Positions 119 to 20,753 of a stretch of 21,605 bases of DNA are shown in pieces (positions within the stretch are counted from its first letter, which is position 1; the number at the start of each line of letters is the position of its first letter). The notes under the pieces were generated by a model. That model was not told where the DNA came from and did not search any database. It worked only from the letters and a program-made list of their open reading frames with translations. This DNA comes from a virus: the IMG/VR virus record IMGVR_UViG_3300047318_000260, positions 1-21,605 of that record, one strand, 5' to 3'. The translations under genes and the position numbers were made by a program.

Positions 119-140
119 CACCTACGATTTTTCGCAAGTG
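119..140 (+). promoter_or_regulatory. Operator-like palindrome, copy 1
   Basis: This 22-bp site has arms CACCTACGAT and TTCGCAAGTG around TT. It matches the recurring palindrome whose best halves are CACCTACGAA and TTCGTAGGTG, with mismatches in the right arm. It ends two bases before the -35 box at 143, so a bound protein would occlude the promoter. Confidence 0.7.
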
Positions 141-142
141 GT

Positions 143-172
143 TTGACACGCCATCAGCGATCGACATAGTGT
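143..172 (+). promoter_or_regulatory. Sigma-70-type early promoter for the 330-aa protein gene
   Basis: TTGACA (143-148), 18-bp spacer, TAGTGT (167-172). The leader contains CTCGTAAGGTCGAG, a small hairpin (CTCG...CGAG) shared in form with the leaders of the cassettes at 15.3-16.7 kb. The layout operator, promoter, leader, AGGGGAG ribosome site is the same as in those cassettes. Confidence 0.75.
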
Positions 173-216
173 GTCCCTCGTAAGGTCGAGACAGTGAAAC
201 TCCAGGGGAGAGCATC

Positions 217-4255: not shown

Positions 4256-4263
4256 GGGTTGAC

Positions 4264-4285
4264 CACATACGAATTTTCGGAGGTG
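4264..4285 (+). promoter_or_regulatory. Operator-like palindrome overlapping a ribosome site, copy 2
   Basis: Arms CACATACGAA and TTCGGAGGTG flank TT. In the right arm one base differs from the consensus, creating GGAGGTG, which is the Shine-Dalgarno of the HNH gene that starts six bases later. The 26 bases 4261-4286 are identical to 20724-20749 before another HNH gene. Confidence 0.65.
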
Positions 4286-4290
4286 CCGTT

Positions 4291-13005: not shown

Positions 13006-13170
13006 GTGACTTACAACCTGCGCAACGGCTTCAAGGTCACCACTCGCAAGGTTGCAGACGGTACGGAGTTCGAGACGCTCAACCCCCAGGGGGAGACGAT
13101 CAGCACCGTAACGCTCGGATACCTGTCCGCCCGTGATCTGGTGCTCGACCTGCGCCGCAAGGCTGCTTAG
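13006..13170 (+). CDS. Small unknown protein, 54 aa
   Basis: The GTG start at 13006 is preceded by a CGGAGC ribosome site nine to ten bases upstream and by the promoter-like element at 12955. The product begins MTYNLRNGFKVTTRKVADG and ends with a helix LSARDLVLDLRRKAA. The first part looks like a beta-hairpin. No family is recognised. It starts the operon-like run that leads toward thyX. Confidence 0.7.
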   Translation: MTYNLRNGFKVTTRKVADGTEFETLNPQGETISTVTLGYLSARDLVLDLRRKAA

Positions 13171-14119: not shown

Positions 14120-14366
14120 GCGTCTGACCCTGGTACTGATCGGCGCGTCCTGGTGTGCTCCGTGCAAGCGAACTGCCCCTATTGCGGAGCGAGTTGCAGA
14201 GCAAACCGGCGTGGCCTACGAGTACGTGGACGTTGAGTCCTACGACAGCCGAGCCAACGGGGTGACTGCCGTCCCGACCCTGCGGCTGTACGACGCGTCT
14301 GACACGGTAATTGAGGAGCACATCGGCGCCGCTACCGCTGATCAAATCAGGCTGCTCGTCTCGTGA
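14109..14366 (+). CDS. Thioredoxin-like redox protein
   Basis: This 85-aa single-domain protein has the active site WCAPCK (C16, C19), a following helix, and the cis-Pro region [10 protein letters not shown]. It is shorter than typical thioredoxin (about 105 aa), in the range of phage thioredoxin and NrdH-type proteins. ATG 14109 lies inside the end of thyX with GGAG seven bases upstream. Likely partner: the C-terminal cysteines of the class II reductase. No thioredoxin reductase is seen in the window, so host reductase is presumably used. Confidence 0.88.
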
Positions 14367-14773
14367 GCCGCCCGGATTGGGACACGTACTTTCTCGCCGG
14401 TGCCGAATGGGTTGCCACTCGGGCCGACTGCACCCGTAGCGCTGTGGGTGCCATCCTGGTCAACGCTTCGCATGAGGTTCGGGGGACTGGCTATAACGGT
14501 CCCCCGGCCGGGGTGCCCGGTTGCCTCTCCGAAGGAGCTTGCCCCCGTGGGCAGTTGACCTACGAGCAGTGCGCAGCGAACACCGACTACAGCAACTGCA
14601 CGGCCGACCACGCCGAGCGAAACGCCATCCGACACACGCGGCCCGAGGAGCGTCTAGGGGCGACCCTGTACACCACCCGAGCCCCTTGCCCGGCGTGCTG
14701 GACCCTGATCCGTGCGAGCGGGATTGCCCGGGTCGTCTGCCCTACTGCCCGCTGGAAGCTTGCTTTTTCGTAG
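14363..14773 (+). CDS. Deoxycytidylate (dCMP) deaminase
   Basis: This 136-aa zinc enzyme converts dCMP to dUMP. The catalytic signature is H83-A-E85 (TADHAERN) with C109 and C112 (APCPAC) as the remaining zinc ligands. The N-terminal DWDTYFLAGAEWVATRADCTRSAVGAILV matches dCMP deaminases of the ComEB type, including the conserved R-A-D-C. Extra cysteines between residues 54 and 79 could form a second metal site. The GTG start overlaps the thioredoxin stop. Its stop codon TAG lies within a copy of the operator half-site. Confidence 0.9.
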   Translation: MSRPDWDTYFLAGAEWVATRADCTRSAVGAILVNASHEVRGTGYNGPPAGVPGCLSEGACPRGQLTYEQCAANTDYSNCTADHAERNAIRHTRPEERLGATLYTTRAPCPACWTLIRASGIARVVCPTARWKLAFS

Positions 14774-14776
14774 GTG
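14764..14776 (+). promoter_or_regulatory. Operator half-site overlapping a stop codon
   Basis: CTTTTTCGTAGGT plus G: the right arm of the palindrome is perfect, but the left arm is missing. The dCMP deaminase stop TAG is inside it. It lies just upstream of the gene at 14796. Confidence 0.5.
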
Positions 14777-15237: not shown

Positions 15238-15269
15238 GGCCCCTGGTCCTGCGGGACTGGGGGCCTTTC
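15238..15269 (+). terminator. Rho-independent terminator
   Basis: GGCCCCTGGTCC (15238-15249) pairs with GGACTGGGGGCC (15254-15265), 12 bp with two G-U pairs and a TGCG loop, followed by TTTCT. Confidence 0.88.
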
Positions 15270-15291
15270 TGCATACGAATTTTCGTAGGTG
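15270..15291 (+). promoter_or_regulatory. Operator-like site of cassette 1
   Basis: TGCATACGAA, TT, TTCGTAGGTG: the right arm is perfect and the left arm partial. It ends two bases before the -35 box at 15294. Confidence 0.7.
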
Positions 15292-15293
15292 CC

Positions 15294-15323
15294 TTGCGCG
15301 CGGGTCGCGGATGCGCATAGAGT
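15294..15323 (+). promoter_or_regulatory. Promoter of cassette 1
   Basis: TTGCGC (15294-15299), 18-bp spacer, TAGAGT (15318-15323). The leader contains CTCGTAAG...CAGCGAG, a CTCG/CGAG hairpin, followed by AGGGGAG. Confidence 0.75.
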
Positions 15324-15360
15324 TCCACTCGTAAGCACAACAGCGAGCAGGGGAGCGGAC

Positions 15361-15729
15361 ATGAACATCACGGTGCGAATCGCAGGCGGACGCTACTACG
15401 GCCAGGTGCGCGACGGTAAGCGCCTGATGTTCCACACCCCGGGCTACCTGACCGAGGCTATGGCCCTGGCCGACGCGAAGTGCTGGACCGCCTTCAACGA
15501 CAAGGGAGAGACCGTGGAAGACATCGTCAAGGACACGCAGACGTTCCAGACCCGCAGCGGGTACGACGGAAGCCTTAAGATCGTCGGCCCGGACCGGATG
15601 CGCGCCACCATCGCGAACGCCGAGCAGCACAAGGTGTCAGTCAGCGTGATGACCAACGATCGGGGCCGGAAGTACATCAACATCCACAACGGCGGATCGT
15701 CCTACGGCCGGTACTTCTACATGAGCTAG
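15361..15729 (+). CDS. Cassette 1 unknown protein, 122 aa
   Basis: ATG 15361 follows AGGGGAG by six bases; the open frame extends further upstream, but into the promoter. The protein begins MNITVRIAGGRYYGQVRDGK and looks beta-rich, with a helical segment TEAMALADAKCWTAFNDKG, then NAEQHKVSVSVMTNDRGRKY and a Gly/Tyr-rich C-terminus (GGSSYGRYFYMS). No family is recognised. It is transcribed alone from an operator-controlled promoter and ends at its own terminator, so it is probably an early accessory product. Confidence 0.8.
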   Translation: MNITVRIAGGRYYGQVRDGKRLMFHTPGYLTEAMALADAKCWTAFNDKGETVEDIVKDTQTFQTRSGYDGSLKIVGPDRMRATIANAEQHKVSVSVMTNDRGRKYINIHNGGSSYGRYFYMS

Positions 15730-15736
15730 GCAGTCG

Positions 15737-15765
15737 GGGCCCCTGGGAGACCGGGGGCCCTTTTT
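15737..15765 (+). terminator. Terminator of cassette 1
   Basis: GGGCCCC...GGGGCCC stem with an inner TGG/CCG region, followed by five T. The T tract is the first part of the next operator half-site. Confidence 0.88.
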
Positions 15766-15773
15766 CGTAGGTG
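15761..15773 (+). promoter_or_regulatory. Operator half-site of cassette 2
   Basis: TTTTTCGTAGGTG. The left arm of the palindrome is replaced by the terminator stem. It ends two bases before the -35 box. Confidence 0.6.
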
Positions 15774-15775
15774 GG

Positions 15776-15804
15776 TTGTGCCTGCGGCGCGGAGCGGCTA
15801 GTGT
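15776..15804 (+). promoter_or_regulatory. Promoter of cassette 2
   Basis: TTGTGC (15776-15781), 17-bp spacer, TAGTGT (15799-15804). The leader is more divergent than in the other cassettes and lacks the CTCG/CGAG hairpin. Confidence 0.7.
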
Positions 15805-15843
15805 TCCTCTTGTCAGCGCAGCAGCCCCGAAAGGACCAAGACC

Positions 15844-16152
15844 ATGGCCGGTAAGCGCCCCCAGAACAGCGGTAACCGCTCGTCCCTCCGCCTCGGCCCG
15901 GTCGTGAGCCGTCGACTCAAGGCAGCTGGGTTCAACATCAGCCCCGCCGCCCGCCGCTACCAGGCGCAGGGAATCTTCGTACGGGCCGCTGAGCGCCGGA
16001 TTAGCGTCACGGTGGACACGGGGGCCAACGCAGCCACGGTAGCCGCTGAGATCGCCGCTGAGGTGACCTCCTGGGGCTTCCCCGCTGAGGTTGCTTCGCA
16101 GACGCACGAGGGCGAGTCCTGGTCCACGGTGAGATTCACCTACAGCGCATGA
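15844..16152 (+). CDS. Cassette 2 unknown protein, 102 aa
   Basis: ATG 15844 has AAAGGA upstream. The N-terminus is basic (MAGKRPQNSGNRSSLRLG and VSRRLKAAGF), followed by YQAQGIFVRAAERRISVTVD, an Ala-rich helix and a final beta strand (STVRFTYSA). The fold hints at a small alpha/beta domain. The basic N-terminus could bind nucleic acid. No family is recognised. It has its own promoter and terminator. Confidence 0.8.
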   Translation: MAGKRPQNSGNRSSLRLGPVVSRRLKAAGFNISPAARRYQAQGIFVRAAERRISVTVDTGANAATVAAEIAAEVTSWGFPAEVASQTHEGESWSTVRFTYSA

Positions 16153-16157
16153 CGGTA

Positions 16158-16192
16158 GGGCCCCTGGGGGGAAACCCTGGGGGCTCTTTTTT
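16158..16192 (+). terminator. Terminator of cassette 2
   Basis: An imperfect GGGCCCCTGGG / CCCTGGGGGCT stem is followed by CTTTTTT, which merges with the operator half-site. Confidence 0.8.
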
Positions 16193-16200
16193 CGTAGGTG
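16187..16200 (+). promoter_or_regulatory. Operator half-site of cassette 3
   Basis: TTTTTTCGTAGGTG with a perfect right arm and no left arm. It is one base before the -35 box. Confidence 0.6.
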
Positions 16201-16201
16201 G

Positions 16202-16231
16202 TTGCGCAGGAGGCTCGCCCGTGTGTAGAGT
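16202..16231 (+). promoter_or_regulatory. Promoter of cassette 3
   Basis: TTGCGC (16202-16207), 18-bp spacer, TAGAGT (16226-16231). The leader TTCTACTCGTAAGGACACAG then CGAGC carries the CTCG/CGAG hairpin. Confidence 0.78.
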
Positions 16232-16269
16232 TCTACTCGTAAGGACACAGCGAGCCAGGGAGACACCAA

Positions 16270-16521
16270 ATGTCGTTCACCATCAAGTACAACCGGACCA
16301 CGAACCACATCGCGGGCATGGAGGTTCGTACCACGGGTGGGGGCAACGAGGTGGACGGCGCGATCACGTACTACGCTCAGAGCACCTGCGGCTCACTGAC
16401 CCGGTCCCGCCTGGCTACCGGAGCATCCTTCGAGACCCTGGCCGAGGCTGTAGCGGCTGCTCGCATCACCGGCGGTCGGAAGCTCTGCAAGACCTGCGCA
16501 AAGGCCGCAGACGCCGCCTGA
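16270..16521 (+). CDS. Cassette 3 unknown protein, 83 aa
   Basis: ATG 16270 follows AGGGAGA. Begins MSFTIKYNRTTNHIAGMEVR, then a beta-rich section, then a helix (FETLAEAVAAARITG) and a C-terminal KLCKTCAKAA. The CxxC pair plus an earlier Cys (STCGS) could bind one zinc ion. It resembles small phage proteins with a single treble-clef-like knuckle, but no family is assigned. It has its own promoter and a terminator hairpin. Confidence 0.78.
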   Translation: MSFTIKYNRTTNHIAGMEVRTTGGGNEVDGAITYYAQSTCGSLTRSRLATGASFETLAEAVAAARITGGRKLCKTCAKAADAA

Positions 16522-16528
16522 ACCACTC

Positions 16529-16554
16529 GGCCCCTGGGGGAGACCCTGGGGGCC
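16529..16554 (+). terminator. Terminator-like hairpin of cassette 3
   Basis: GGCCCC and GGGGCC form the base of the stem with a TGGGGGAGACCCT top. It is followed by ATTCCG, not a T tract, so it is weaker than its neighbours. Confidence 0.55.
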
Positions 16555-16565
16555 ATTCCGCTGTA

Positions 16566-16590
16566 GGACCAAAGATAGGTGTAACGCCCA
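16566..16590. repeat. 25-bp inverted repeat, left copy
   Basis: Begins GGACCAAAGATAGGTG and ends TAACGCCCA. Its exact reverse complement is at 16977-17001. The pair brackets cassette 4. A degenerate third copy is at 17024. Confidence 0.9.
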
Positions 16591-16621
16591 CACACGTCAC
16601 GGTCAGCGATGAGGCCCGGGT

Positions 16622-16643
16622 CACGTACGATTTTTCGTAGGTG
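16622..16643 (+). promoter_or_regulatory. Operator-like palindrome of cassette 4
   Basis: CACGTACGAT, TT, TTCGTAGGTG: the right arm is perfect, with two left-arm mismatches. It ends one base before the -35 box. Confidence 0.72.
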
Positions 16644-16644
16644 G

Positions 16645-16673
16645 TTGCGCGGGCGCTTCGCCATGTGTAGAGT
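16645..16673 (+). promoter_or_regulatory. Promoter of cassette 4
   Basis: TTGCGC (16645-16650), 17-bp spacer, TAGAGT (16668-16673). The leader begins TCTACTCGTAAGCACGAC, matching the other cassette leaders, and ends in AGGGGAG. Confidence 0.78.
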
Positions 16674-16712
16674 TCTACTCGTAAGCACGACAACGACGCA
16701 GGGGAGAACGAA

Positions 16713-16916
16713 ATGAACGCCACCACCGCCCGAGTCACGGTCAAGACGCAGGGTGCCGGGGGATGGGCCCTGGTCCGCGAGTTCGACGCGACGGGCGCTG
16801 AGATCCGCTCCTGCAAGGTCCGCAGCAACGAGGACATGCTCCTCACCGCGAACGCCAAGACCGGGCGCCGCTGGAGCTGGGGCGCGATGGGTACCGGCTA
16901 CTGGGCCGGGATGTAA
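16713..16916 (+). CDS. Cassette 4 unknown protein, 67 aa
   Basis: ATG 16713 has AGGGGAG upstream. The product begins MNATTARVTVKTQGAGGWAL and is beta-rich (REFDATGAEIRSCKVRSNED), ending in a Trp/Gly-rich section (RRWSWGAMGTGYWAGM). No family is recognised. It has its own operator, promoter and terminator, and the whole unit is flanked by a perfect 25-bp inverted repeat, which is unique among the cassettes. Confidence 0.78.
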   Translation: MNATTARVTVKTQGAGGWALVREFDATGAEIRSCKVRSNEDMLLTANAKTGRRWSWGAMGTGYWAGM

Positions 16917-16925
16917 GCACTGAAG

Positions 16926-16957
16926 AGAAGCCCCCTGGGAAACCGGGGGGCTTCTTT
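16926..16957 (+). terminator. Terminator of cassette 4
   Basis: AGAAGCCCCC and GGGGGGCTTCT form a long stem around a TGGGAAACC top, followed by TT. Confidence 0.88.
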
Positions 16958-16976: not shown

Positions 16977-17001
16977 TGGGCGTTACACCTATCTTTGGTC
17001 C
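16977..17001. repeat. 25-bp inverted repeat, right copy
   Basis: Begins TGGGCGTTACACC and ends TTTGGTCC. It is the exact reverse complement of 16566-16590. It lies just beyond the cassette 4 terminator. Confidence 0.9.
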
Positions 17002-18190: not shown

Positions 18191-18244
18191 CATGTCCTCA
18201 AGGGTGGTTGCATTCGGGCGAATGCGGGTAGCCTTGAGTACATG
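18191..18244. other. attP: Predicted phage attachment site attP
   Basis: A 54-bp imperfect dyad is centred on GG (18217-18218). The inner arms GCATTCG/CGAATGC are perfect, and the outer arms CATGTCCTCAAGG/CCTTGAGTACATG match at 12 of 13 positions. Size, dyad form, a non-palindromic central dinucleotide and the position directly upstream of int all fit a serine-integrase attP. The right end includes the integrase ATG. Alternatives are an int operator or a terminator, but there is no T tract. The expected crossover is at the GG. Confidence 0.65.
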
Positions 18245-19639
18245 AGCCAAATTGAGCACCCCGGCGTGGCCGTACATGCCTACTACCGCCTGAGCCGCGA
18301 GAACGATGGATCGTCCAGTATCGAGACTCAGCGACAGGCCGTCATCCGCTGGTGCATCGGGAACGGGTACGACCCTGCACTCATCGTCGAGCACACCGAC
18401 ACGAACGTAAGCGGCGCCAAGCCCCTGGAACAGCGCAAGGCAATGTCAGCGCTCATGCGCAGTGAGCCGACCATCGTCGTTGCCTGGAAGCAAGACCGGT
18501 ACGCCCGCAGCGTCTCCGAGTTCCTCCGGCTAGTCGCATGGGCCGAGGCACACGGGGTCTTGCTCGCCACCACGGACGGGCAACTGAACACCGGCACGTC
18601 CCATGGGCGCATGGTCGCCACGATCCTTGCCACCCTCGCAGCGTGGGAACGAGAAATGATCGTTGCCCGCATCACCGAGGGACACGCCACCCGCCGGGCC
18701 CAGGGTCGTTGGTCCAGCGGCCGAGCCCCCTTCGGCTACCAGATCGAGCGCAGGGACGGCGCCGCATACCTCACACAGGATCCTGAGCAAGCGCAGCGGG
18801 TACGTGACGCTGTCGCTGTCCTGGTGGCCCCCGGTGGGAACGCCACAGTGGCCTCAACGGCGCGCCTGGTGGGCCTCTCTGAGCCTCGTTGGCGCAAGCT
18901 GCTGAAATCCCCCATGCTCCGGGGTCAGCGCGACCACAACGGCAAGCTAGTGCTTGGTGCGGACGGAATCACGCCCATACAGTTCGCCGACCCCATCATC
19001 AATGCCGCTGAGCACAGGGCAGTGCGCGACCGCATGAAGGCACTAGCCACGGGTCAGGACCGAGCCCCACGGCATGCGGCGAACCTCTGCGCTGGTATGG
19101 CCTGGTGCTACAAGTGCTCAGGGCCGCTCAATGGAGGGGGTAGCGGCGCAGGTGTGCGCCTGTACAAGTGCAAGGCGGGTCACGTGACCATCTATGCCGA
19201 GACACTCGATCAGCGGGTGACGGAAGCCTTCCTGCGTCGCTGGGGTGGCTTCGCTGAGTACGTGGTCCGGCTCGAAGGTGGCAACGACCTATCAGCGGAG
19301 ATGATTGAAGCCCAGGAGCAAGCCGCGCGCATCGCCGCTGGTTTTGCTACCGCCGGGCCTCTCATGATCTCCACGCTGCACGAAAAAGCGGCCGAGCTGG
19401 AAGCCGCATACGCCGCTCTGAAGGCCGCACACGATCCGGACGTCCGAGAGGTGCTAGAGCCCACTGGGAGGACGCTGGGGGACGCCTGGCAGGATCCTGC
19501 GGCACGTTCCCGCTTGCTCAACGATGTGGGGCTGATGGTGACCCTGCATCCCAAGCAGCGGGCGGACCGGCTAGAGATCCATTGGGAGTCGGGCGGCGAC
19601 GATCACGCACTCGCTGACTACCTGGGCGACATGGCGTAG
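18242..19639 (+). CDS. int: Large serine recombinase (integrase)
   Basis: This 465-aa integrase recombines attP with a host attB. The N-terminal resolvase domain has catalytic S18 in YYRLSRENDG, with R16, SIETQ at 26-30 and the conserved D85-R86 (KQDRYAR), plus GRMVATILATLAAWEREMI. The recombinase domain covers roughly 155-280. A zinc ribbon has C289, C292, C310 and H314. A coiled-coil segment follows around residues 340-400. Size is close to R4 and A118 integrases (about 450-470 aa). The ATG lies at the edge of the attP dyad with no ribosome site, so translation may be leaderless or weak. The Gp3-like protein at 2442 is the likely directionality factor. Confidence 0.95.
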   Translation: MSQIEHPGVAVHAYYRLSRENDGSSSIETQRQAVIRWCIGNGYDPALIVEHTDTNVSGAKPLEQRKAMSALMRSEPTIVVAWKQDRYARSVSEFLRLVAWAEAHGVLLATTDGQLNTGTSHGRMVATILATLAAWEREMIVARITEGHATRRAQGRWSSGRAPFGYQIERRDGAAYLTQDPEQAQRVRDAVAVLVAPGGNATVASTARLVGLSEPRWRKLLKSPMLRGQRDHNGKLVLGADGITPIQFADPIINAAEHRAVRDRMKALATGQDRAPRHAANLCAGMAWCYKCSGPLNGGGSGAGVRLYKCKAGHVTIYAETLDQRVTEAFLRRWGGFAEYVVRLEGGNDLSAEMIEAQEQAARIAAGFATAGPLMISTLHEKAAELEAAYAALKAAHDPDVREVLEPTGRTLGDAWQDPAARSRLLNDVGLMVTLHPKQRADRLEIHWESGGDDHALADYLGDMA

Positions 19640-19787: not shown

Positions 19788-19881
19788 ATGTAGAGATGTA
19801 GTTTTAGACCTATTTTCAAGAATCACATAAGAGTCTCTAAGGGATTCCAGAAACACACTTCGTTTCTACACTTCTACACAC
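19788..19881. repeat. 94-bp AT-rich direct repeat, copy B
   Basis: 88 of 94 positions are identical to 1345-1438, same orientation, no gaps. Differences are two adjacent bases near the left end and four scattered substitutions. It is followed after seven bases by the sixth TGCGTTCGAC element, as copy A is followed by the first. Confidence 0.9.
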
Positions 19882-20644: not shown

Positions 20645-20728
20645 CCGCTGTTGGTGGAACGGAAGACACGCTGCGCTTAGAACGCAGTGCCTTAGGGCAT
20701 GGGGGTTCGAATCCCTCACAGCGGACCA
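20645..20728 (+). tRNA. tRNA-Leu (anticodon TAG)
   Basis: Acceptor CCGCTGT/ACAGCGG, anticodon stem CTGCG/CGCAG with loop CTTAGAA giving TAG, long variable arm GTGCCTTAGGGCAT as expected for class II tRNA-Leu, and T arm with GGTTCGAATCC. The 3' end reads ACCA, so CCA appears encoded. Its last two bases are also the first two of an operator copy. Confidence 0.93.
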
Positions 20729-20748
20729 CATACGAATTTTCGGAGGTG
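20727..20748 (+). promoter_or_regulatory. Operator-like palindrome between tRNA-Leu and HNH gene
   Basis: CACATACGAA, TT, TTCGGAGGTG, identical to 4264-4285. It overlaps the tRNA 3' end on the left and forms the GGAGGTG ribosome site of the HNH gene on the right. Confidence 0.65.
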
Positions 20749-20753
20749 CGTAC

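Follow-up and report, generated by a model that had tools for sequence, protein, structure and literature searches.

The 21,605-base virus record IMGVR_UViG_3300047318_000260, the whole of which is called the window here, is part of the genome of a temperate Streptomyces phage of the phiC31 type, and carries at positions 15270-16957 a tandem array of four one-gene cassettes whose small genes are named c1 to c4. As the original prediction had it, an operator or half-operator, a promoter, a leader, a ribosome site, a small gene and a hairpin are present in each of the four units. The front ends, composed of the right operator arm, the -35 box, a spacer of 17-18 nt, the -10 box and the leader, begin at 15282, 15764, 16191 and 16634; one more, at 131, precedes the gene at 217. 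The composite pattern gives five matches in the window against none in 300 dinucleotide-preserving shuffles (both strands). A generic sigma-70 scan of the window found no promoters, since TTGCGC fails that consensus. The operators of c1 and c4 are two-arm (at 15270 and 16622, the left arm at 15270 being degenerate), and those of c2 and c3 consist of the right arm only, joined to the T tract of the previous terminator, exactly the two cases of sharing that had been claimed. Hairpins with folding energies of -19.3 to -30.3 kcal/mol (z of -2.5 to -5.9 against shuffled sequence) follow all four genes, so that the proposed terminators hold in this respect, except that the one after c3 is followed by ATTCC instead of a T tract. 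The extension of the scheme to the gene at 217 likewise stands in part: the front-end pattern is shared, but the -35 box is TTGACA and not TTGCGC, and the product is a phiC31-type repressor rather than a small protein of unknown kind.

The operators belong to a dispersed palindromic family, of which seven two-arm sites plus half-sites are spread across the 21.6 kb; the operator half TTTCGTAGGT (up to two mismatches) occurs 31 times in the window against 8.6 +/- 3.0 in shuffles. In what follows, the window operator is called class A, whilst classes B (CACATACTCTTTTCAGTAGGTG) and C (CAGGTACTGAATTCAGTAGTTG) are both taken from relatives. A de novo search for repeated palindromes returned one family per phage, namely CACCTACGAATTTTCGTAGGTG in the window, CCTACTCACGTGAGTAGG in phiC31, phiBT1, Shawty, Vash and Lilbooboo (14-16 copies each), a class A-like palindrome, CACCTACGGATTTTCGGAGGTG, in Rowa (17 copies) and a third palindrome in Shady. 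The phiC31/Lomovskayavirus operator CCTACTCACGTGAGTAGG has no copy in the window. Ten relatives scanned over their whole records each had a single operator class, which was A in six of them, B in two and C in two, crossing between classes being limited to a single match with two mismatches. The window repressor shares 65-100% identity with those of the seven closest class A phages and 52-56% with those of remoter class A phages; the figures are 44-45% for class B, 41-45% for class C and 32-39% for phiC31-class contigs. Taken at the level of sequence, this comparison shows the operator class to follow the repressor clade, with one class per phage. Since the gene at 217 encodes repressor c, the window operators are most likely its sites, with a predicted specificity unlike that of the phiC31 repressor.

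Loci of relatives, numbered with an L here, were gathered from IMG/VR using the deaminase and each cassette protein as query. The order c1-c2-c3-c4 is found in the window and L016, c1-c5-c3 in L015, c5-c3-c4 in L017, L120 and L122, c2-c3-c4 in L102, and c1-c4-c3 in L109 (class B) and in L123, L124 and L097 (class C); in L127, c4-c3 is preceded by another gene, and L095 reads c1-c2-another gene-c3. The slot for swapping genes that had been proposed is thus borne out: related contigs keep the flanks while cassettes are absent, substituted or reordered (c1-c4-c3), and the counter-case named in the original prediction, the same four genes in a fixed order with no turnover, is not what the relatives contain. 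Slot 1, after the terminator of a 78-aa gene, holds c1, c5 or c2 behind an upstream flank that is 71-94% identical, the three coding sequences being mutually non-matching (40-45%). The gene c5 corresponds to phiC31 gp21 (60-63%), which in phiC31 occupies the same place behind the phiC31 operator. The gene c2 occupies first place in L102, behind a two-arm operator, and second place in the window, where a half-operator joined to a terminator precedes it; between -10 and ATG the two copies are identical. The operator therefore belongs to the place, and the leader to the gene. Together with the finding of the same cassette genes behind different operator classes, one class per phage, this makes it probable that the segment is a variable early-gene locus of single-gene units under one operator class, whose cassettes are acquired, lost, exchanged for others or rearranged from one relative to the next. 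The label "early" would agree with operators of the repressor type and with a gene order like that of phiC31.

The edges of the exchanged piece can be placed by comparing near-identical cargo behind different operators. For c4 in L102 (class A) and L109 (class B), the operator region is 65% identical, the stretch from -10 to ATG 96%, the gene 97% and the first 60 nt past the stop 51%; for c3 in L122 and L109 the same segments give 60, 93, 95 and 48%, and for c1 in the window and L095 (class B) 54, 100, 68 and 56%. As a random baseline, 48-mers drawn from the two genomes align at 33% on average and 46% at most. Elsewhere, L102 and L109 share 68% in thyX and 60% in dcd. The c4 of L109 nests in the class A group, with 97% identity to L122, L102 and L120, counter to the repressor relationships, and the window's own class A copy of c4, at 90-92%, is farther from the class A copies than that of L109. 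On the simplest reading, the exchanged piece would measure about 250-400 bp and reach from about the -10 box, or sometimes a few bases upstream, to the stop, whilst the operator and -35 box and the terminator side would be those of the recipient. From these junction positions we infer recombination as the route.

Table 1. Coordinates of the cassette array, its flanks and the repressor gene in the window.
Feature	Position	Strand	Details
Front end of repressor gene	119..216	+	operator 119-140, TTGACA, 18 nt, TAGTGT, leader CTCGTAAG, ribosome site
phiC31-type repressor c, 330 aa	217..1209	+	Pfam PF25746, E 1.6e-71, whole model; PHROG 19947
dCMP deaminase	14363..14773	+	left anchor of slot; syntenic with phiC31 gene 20
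Half-operator overlapping end of deaminase gene	14766..14775	+	kept in L015, L016, L017
Terminator hairpin of upstream 78-aa gene	15240..15263	+	left flank of slot 1; kept in L015, L016, L017, L102, L122
Cassette 1 operator (CTGCATACGAATTTTCGTAGGTG region)	15269..15290	+	left arm degenerate
Cassette 1 promoter and leader	15294..15335	+	TTGCGC-18-TAGAGT, leader CTCGTAAG
c1 gene, 122 aa	15361..15729	+	homologues in classes A, B, C; dN/dS 0.20-0.56
Cassette 1 terminator	15736..15766	+	T tract continues into cassette 2 half-operator
Cassette 2 half-operator, promoter, leader	15763..15816	+	TTGTGC-17-TAGTGT
c2 gene, 102 aa	15844..16152	+	dN/dS 0.15-0.35
Cassette 2 terminator	16157..16193	+	T tract continues into cassette 3 half-operator
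Cassette 3 half-operator, promoter, leader	16190..16243	+	TTGCGC-18-TAGAGT
c3 gene, 83 aa	16270..16521	+	Cys-containing module; dN/dS 0.07-0.37
Cassette 3 terminator-like hairpin	16529..16554	+	no T tract
25-bp element	16566..16590	-	exact inverted copy of 16977-17001
Cassette 4 operator (CACGTACGATTTTTCGTAGGTG)	16622..16643	+	two-arm
Cassette 4 promoter and leader	16645..16685	+	TTGCGC-17-TAGAGT
c4 gene, 67 aa	16713..16916	+	PHROG 32368; dN/dS 0.24-0.37
Cassette 4 terminator	16924..16957	+	hairpin fold
Serine integrase	18242..19639	+	Pfam PF00239; right anchor of region

The four cassette proteins show no detectable similarity to one another, in line with the unrelated small genes originally described, and look real, since the ratio of nonsynonymous to synonymous substitution rates (dN/dS) in pairs with relatives is 0.07-0.56 across the cassette genes. 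Searches of Pfam and PADLOC with them gave no matches, the content of PADLOC being defence proteins and not anti-defence ones, and the PHROG family matched by c4 has no assigned function. Predicted models were obtained for c1 (predicted local distance difference test, pLDDT, of 81; predicted template modelling score, pTM, of 0.61) and c2 (pLDDT 68, pTM 0.61), and Foldseek found no match to solved structures with E < 0.001 for either; profile searches of solved-structure sequences with the cassette proteins were empty or at chance level. Profile scans of genome contigs with c4 and c1 found no host-genome copies. The first 46 aa or so of c1 form a module with which other phage proteins also begin. 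The c3 module, with cysteines C40 and C73xxC76, recurs as the N-terminus of other proteins, namely the Shawty repressor, proteins of 147-272 aa from class B and C phages, and proteins of the unrelated phages Dryad, Wentworth and PHTowN. The cassette cargo itself is thus modular, the c1 and c3 modules recurring on other phage proteins. A relation of c1 to phiC31 gp32 ("transcribed in lysogens") was considered and rejected as homology, as just 23 residues match (E 8e-5), amounting to a shared N-terminal module at most.

Regarding the wider setting, the genes run in the order repressor, primase, polymerase, sigma-like gene, thyX, thioredoxin, dCMP deaminase, small genes, serine integrase, tRNA and HNH, the same as in phiC31 and its relatives, so that the window holds a syntenic early region ending in a serine integrase, and the cassette segment, from dCMP deaminase to serine integrase, lies at the site of phiC31 genes 21-28. 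Primase and polymerase match phiC31-kind Streptomyces phages at 70-76%, the closest named relatives being Lilbooboo, phiBT1 and Rowa, and the ribonucleotide reductase region matches other Streptomyces phages, also at 70-76%. The window repressor corresponds to about half of the 683-aa phiC31 c, with the N-terminal part missing; the c3 module, the head of the repressor in Shawty, stands in the window as a separate cassette. In phiC31, gp21 (L005:34492-34764) consists of c5 plus a C-terminal Cys module, CTRHG..CDRDPKKAHIF, and in phiBT1, gp21 (L008:34926-35066) consists of copies of that C-terminal module only; this makeup is a sign of domain shuffling at the slot. One copy of the phiC31 operator, the conserved inverted repeat (CIR), lies at L005:34779-34800 within a terminator-like hairpin (AGCCCC-CIR-GGGGCTTTTT), another mode of joining operator and terminator.

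Several further repeats were noted. The gap between c3 and c4 holds additional sequence, including the minus-strand copy of a 25-bp element, GGGCGTTACACCTATCTTTGGTCC, which with the plus-strand copy at 16977 makes an exact inverted pair around cassette 4; relatives often carry it twice next to c3 or c4, with 38-45 bp separating the copies. An AT-rich repeat of 94 bp, 94% identical between its copies, follows the repressor gene (1345-1438) and the integrase gene (19788-19881), with copies also in the class A relatives L102, L106, L108, L115, L150 and L151. A dispersed motif, TGCGTTCGAC-NNN-ACAG (once GGCGTTCGAC), occurs at 2322, 4716, 7143, 9503, 12955 and 19889, always on the + strand and mostly shortly 5' of a gene, and in relatives looser versions occupy the corresponding position ahead of the gene at 13006; it is possibly a second promoter or a processing signal. 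Identical 26-bp operator copies at 4261-4286 and 20724-20749 lie directly 5' of two HNH endonuclease genes, where the right arm, GGAGGTG, also serves as ribosome site, so that repressor site and translation start overlap. A search of viral contigs with the leader matched only this phage group (18 contigs). Among unrelated Streptomyces phages of 64-69 kb, -10 boxes followed by CTCGTAAG or TTGTAAG leaders precede small genes, including c2-, c3- and c4-like ones, in PHTowN, Dryad, Wentworth and Xkcd426 (L146, L148, L007 and L147), the TATAGT..CTCGTAAG type being found before small genes of the first three, of 69 kb.

As a working mechanism, the repressor would silence every cassette unit in the prophage, and upon infection or induction the units would fire early, each independently. 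The common -10 box and leader and the GC-rich hairpins would supply short homology for exchange, and incoming cargo would come under the recipient's repressor with no need for a matching operator of its own. Such a plug-in system, in which heteroimmune phages trade cargo via junctions inside the promoter, the recipient's operator and terminator render it silent in the lysogen and active in the lytic cycle, and the -10/leader and hairpin act as joining sequences, is put forward tentatively, as a reading that may hold but falls somewhat short of an even chance. Weighing against the reading of the segment as a variable early-gene locus, a few units are incomplete: two of the four array operators are half-sites, and no operator can be recognised at the c5 unit of L015. 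The position of the 5' junction is known to about 10 bp only, because the shared -35 box and spacer end add similarity to the operator region, and some class C pairs differ in the leader too (60-65%), so that this junction is not always at the -10 box. The integrases of L102 and L109 are also 82% identical, and larger exchanges may account for part of the likeness of these two. Furthermore, the relatives come for the most part from metagenomic contigs, and several are almost copies of another record (L014 and L047 of the window, L109 of L110, and L095 of L104).

Operators and repressors track one another in every tested record, and this would equally be expected if the cassettes had been inherited together by vertical descent, the operators having mutated in step with repressor specificity under selection and no exchange between phages having taken place. 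Nevertheless, this account looks very unlikely: co-evolution without exchange fits poorly because the non-operator spacer and the downstream sequence change along with the operator and gene order varies among relatives, and, when class A and class B phages are compared, c4 and c3 show far higher identity than thyX or dcd do, with the c4 of L109 nesting within the class A copies. A distinct possibility, though one that we would lean against, is ordinary mosaicism, whereby illegitimate recombination strikes anywhere, selection keeps junctions at gene edges, and the uniform flanks reflect shared regulation without being the means of exchange. Mosaicism is well described for actinophages generally (PMC3203893), and in these phages the integrase and flanking genes are mosaic as well. 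What it explains less readily is that junctions recur just upstream of the -10 box and at the stop or terminator in c1, c2, c3 and c4, and that the -10/leader block is common to unlike genes, although selection could yield both. Compatible with the exchange of cassettes through promoter and hairpin, but somewhat unlikely in itself, is the view that the cassette proteins form an island for blocking defences or redirecting the host early. Small, accessory, fast-exchanged genes of early type and without known domains resemble such islands in other phages; on the other hand, no match of annotated function emerged from Pfam, PHROGs or PADLOC, the c1 and c2 models have no confident counterpart among solved structures, and the c3 module, as the N-terminus of a phage repressor, equally suggests DNA or regulatory binding.

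Although phiC31 has supplied a widely used integrase and vectors, many of its small early genes are unexplained; the present locus marks which of them would be exchangeable accessories, and yields a list of small proteins as candidates for host effects. It would offer a clear case of a temperate phage that can accept a foreign early gene without its escape from the phage's own repressor, and the operator classes would predict immunity groups among these phages. If leader and hairpin are truly joining sequences, new cargo would be recognisable from its flanks alone.

The closest known system is the early region of phiC31 and phiBT1 (Lomovskayavirus), which has a repressor of the homologous family, dispersed palindromic operators, and the same gene order and place; phiC31 moreover shares the slot gene c5. 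That phiC31 has many dispersed repressor sites is well established (PMC4557955), and early terminators of phiC31 without poly-U tails are recorded in Ingham 1995, as cited in PMC13273304. The phiC31 promoter details used here come from sequence and general knowledge. Unlike in phiC31, the window operator is TACGAATTTTCGTA and not ACTCACGTGAGT, and lies upstream of the -35 box; in Lilbooboo and Vash the palindrome can sit between TTGTGC and the -10 box. Packed one-gene cassettes with shared terminator/operator T tracts likewise set the window apart from phiC31, which has only three CIRs between gene 20 and int. A certain resemblance exists to the start-associated and extended start-associated sequences (SAS and ESAS) of Cluster K mycobacteriophages, where many accessory genes likewise share a recurrent front end whose inverted repeats are specific to a class; the authors of that work suggested such repeats as possible recombination targets (PMC3203893). 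SAS is, however, a 13-bp element (GGGATAGGAGCCC) at the ribosome site, whereas the window repeat comprises operator, promoter and leader, and SAS has no match in the window with up to two mismatches allowed. The stoperators of Cluster A mycobacteriophages also come as many repressor sites per genome, with a motif that follows the repressor and heteroimmune classes (PMC6550527), but they are asymmetric, oriented and mostly off promoters; asymmetric, oriented sites away from promoters were not found among the window sites, which are palindromic and, in the array, at promoters. Both SAS/ESAS and stoperators are design parallels and not families containing this locus. As in morons, single genes with their own promoter and terminator (without a T tract for c3) stand between others. 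Expression of morons typically takes place in the prophage and does not depend on the lytic programme. Unlike them, the window cassettes carry the phage's own operator, which would predict silence in the prophage, the opposite of moron expression. What the locus adds over these systems is packed one-gene cassettes, class-matched operators before near-identical cargo, and the positions of the junctions.

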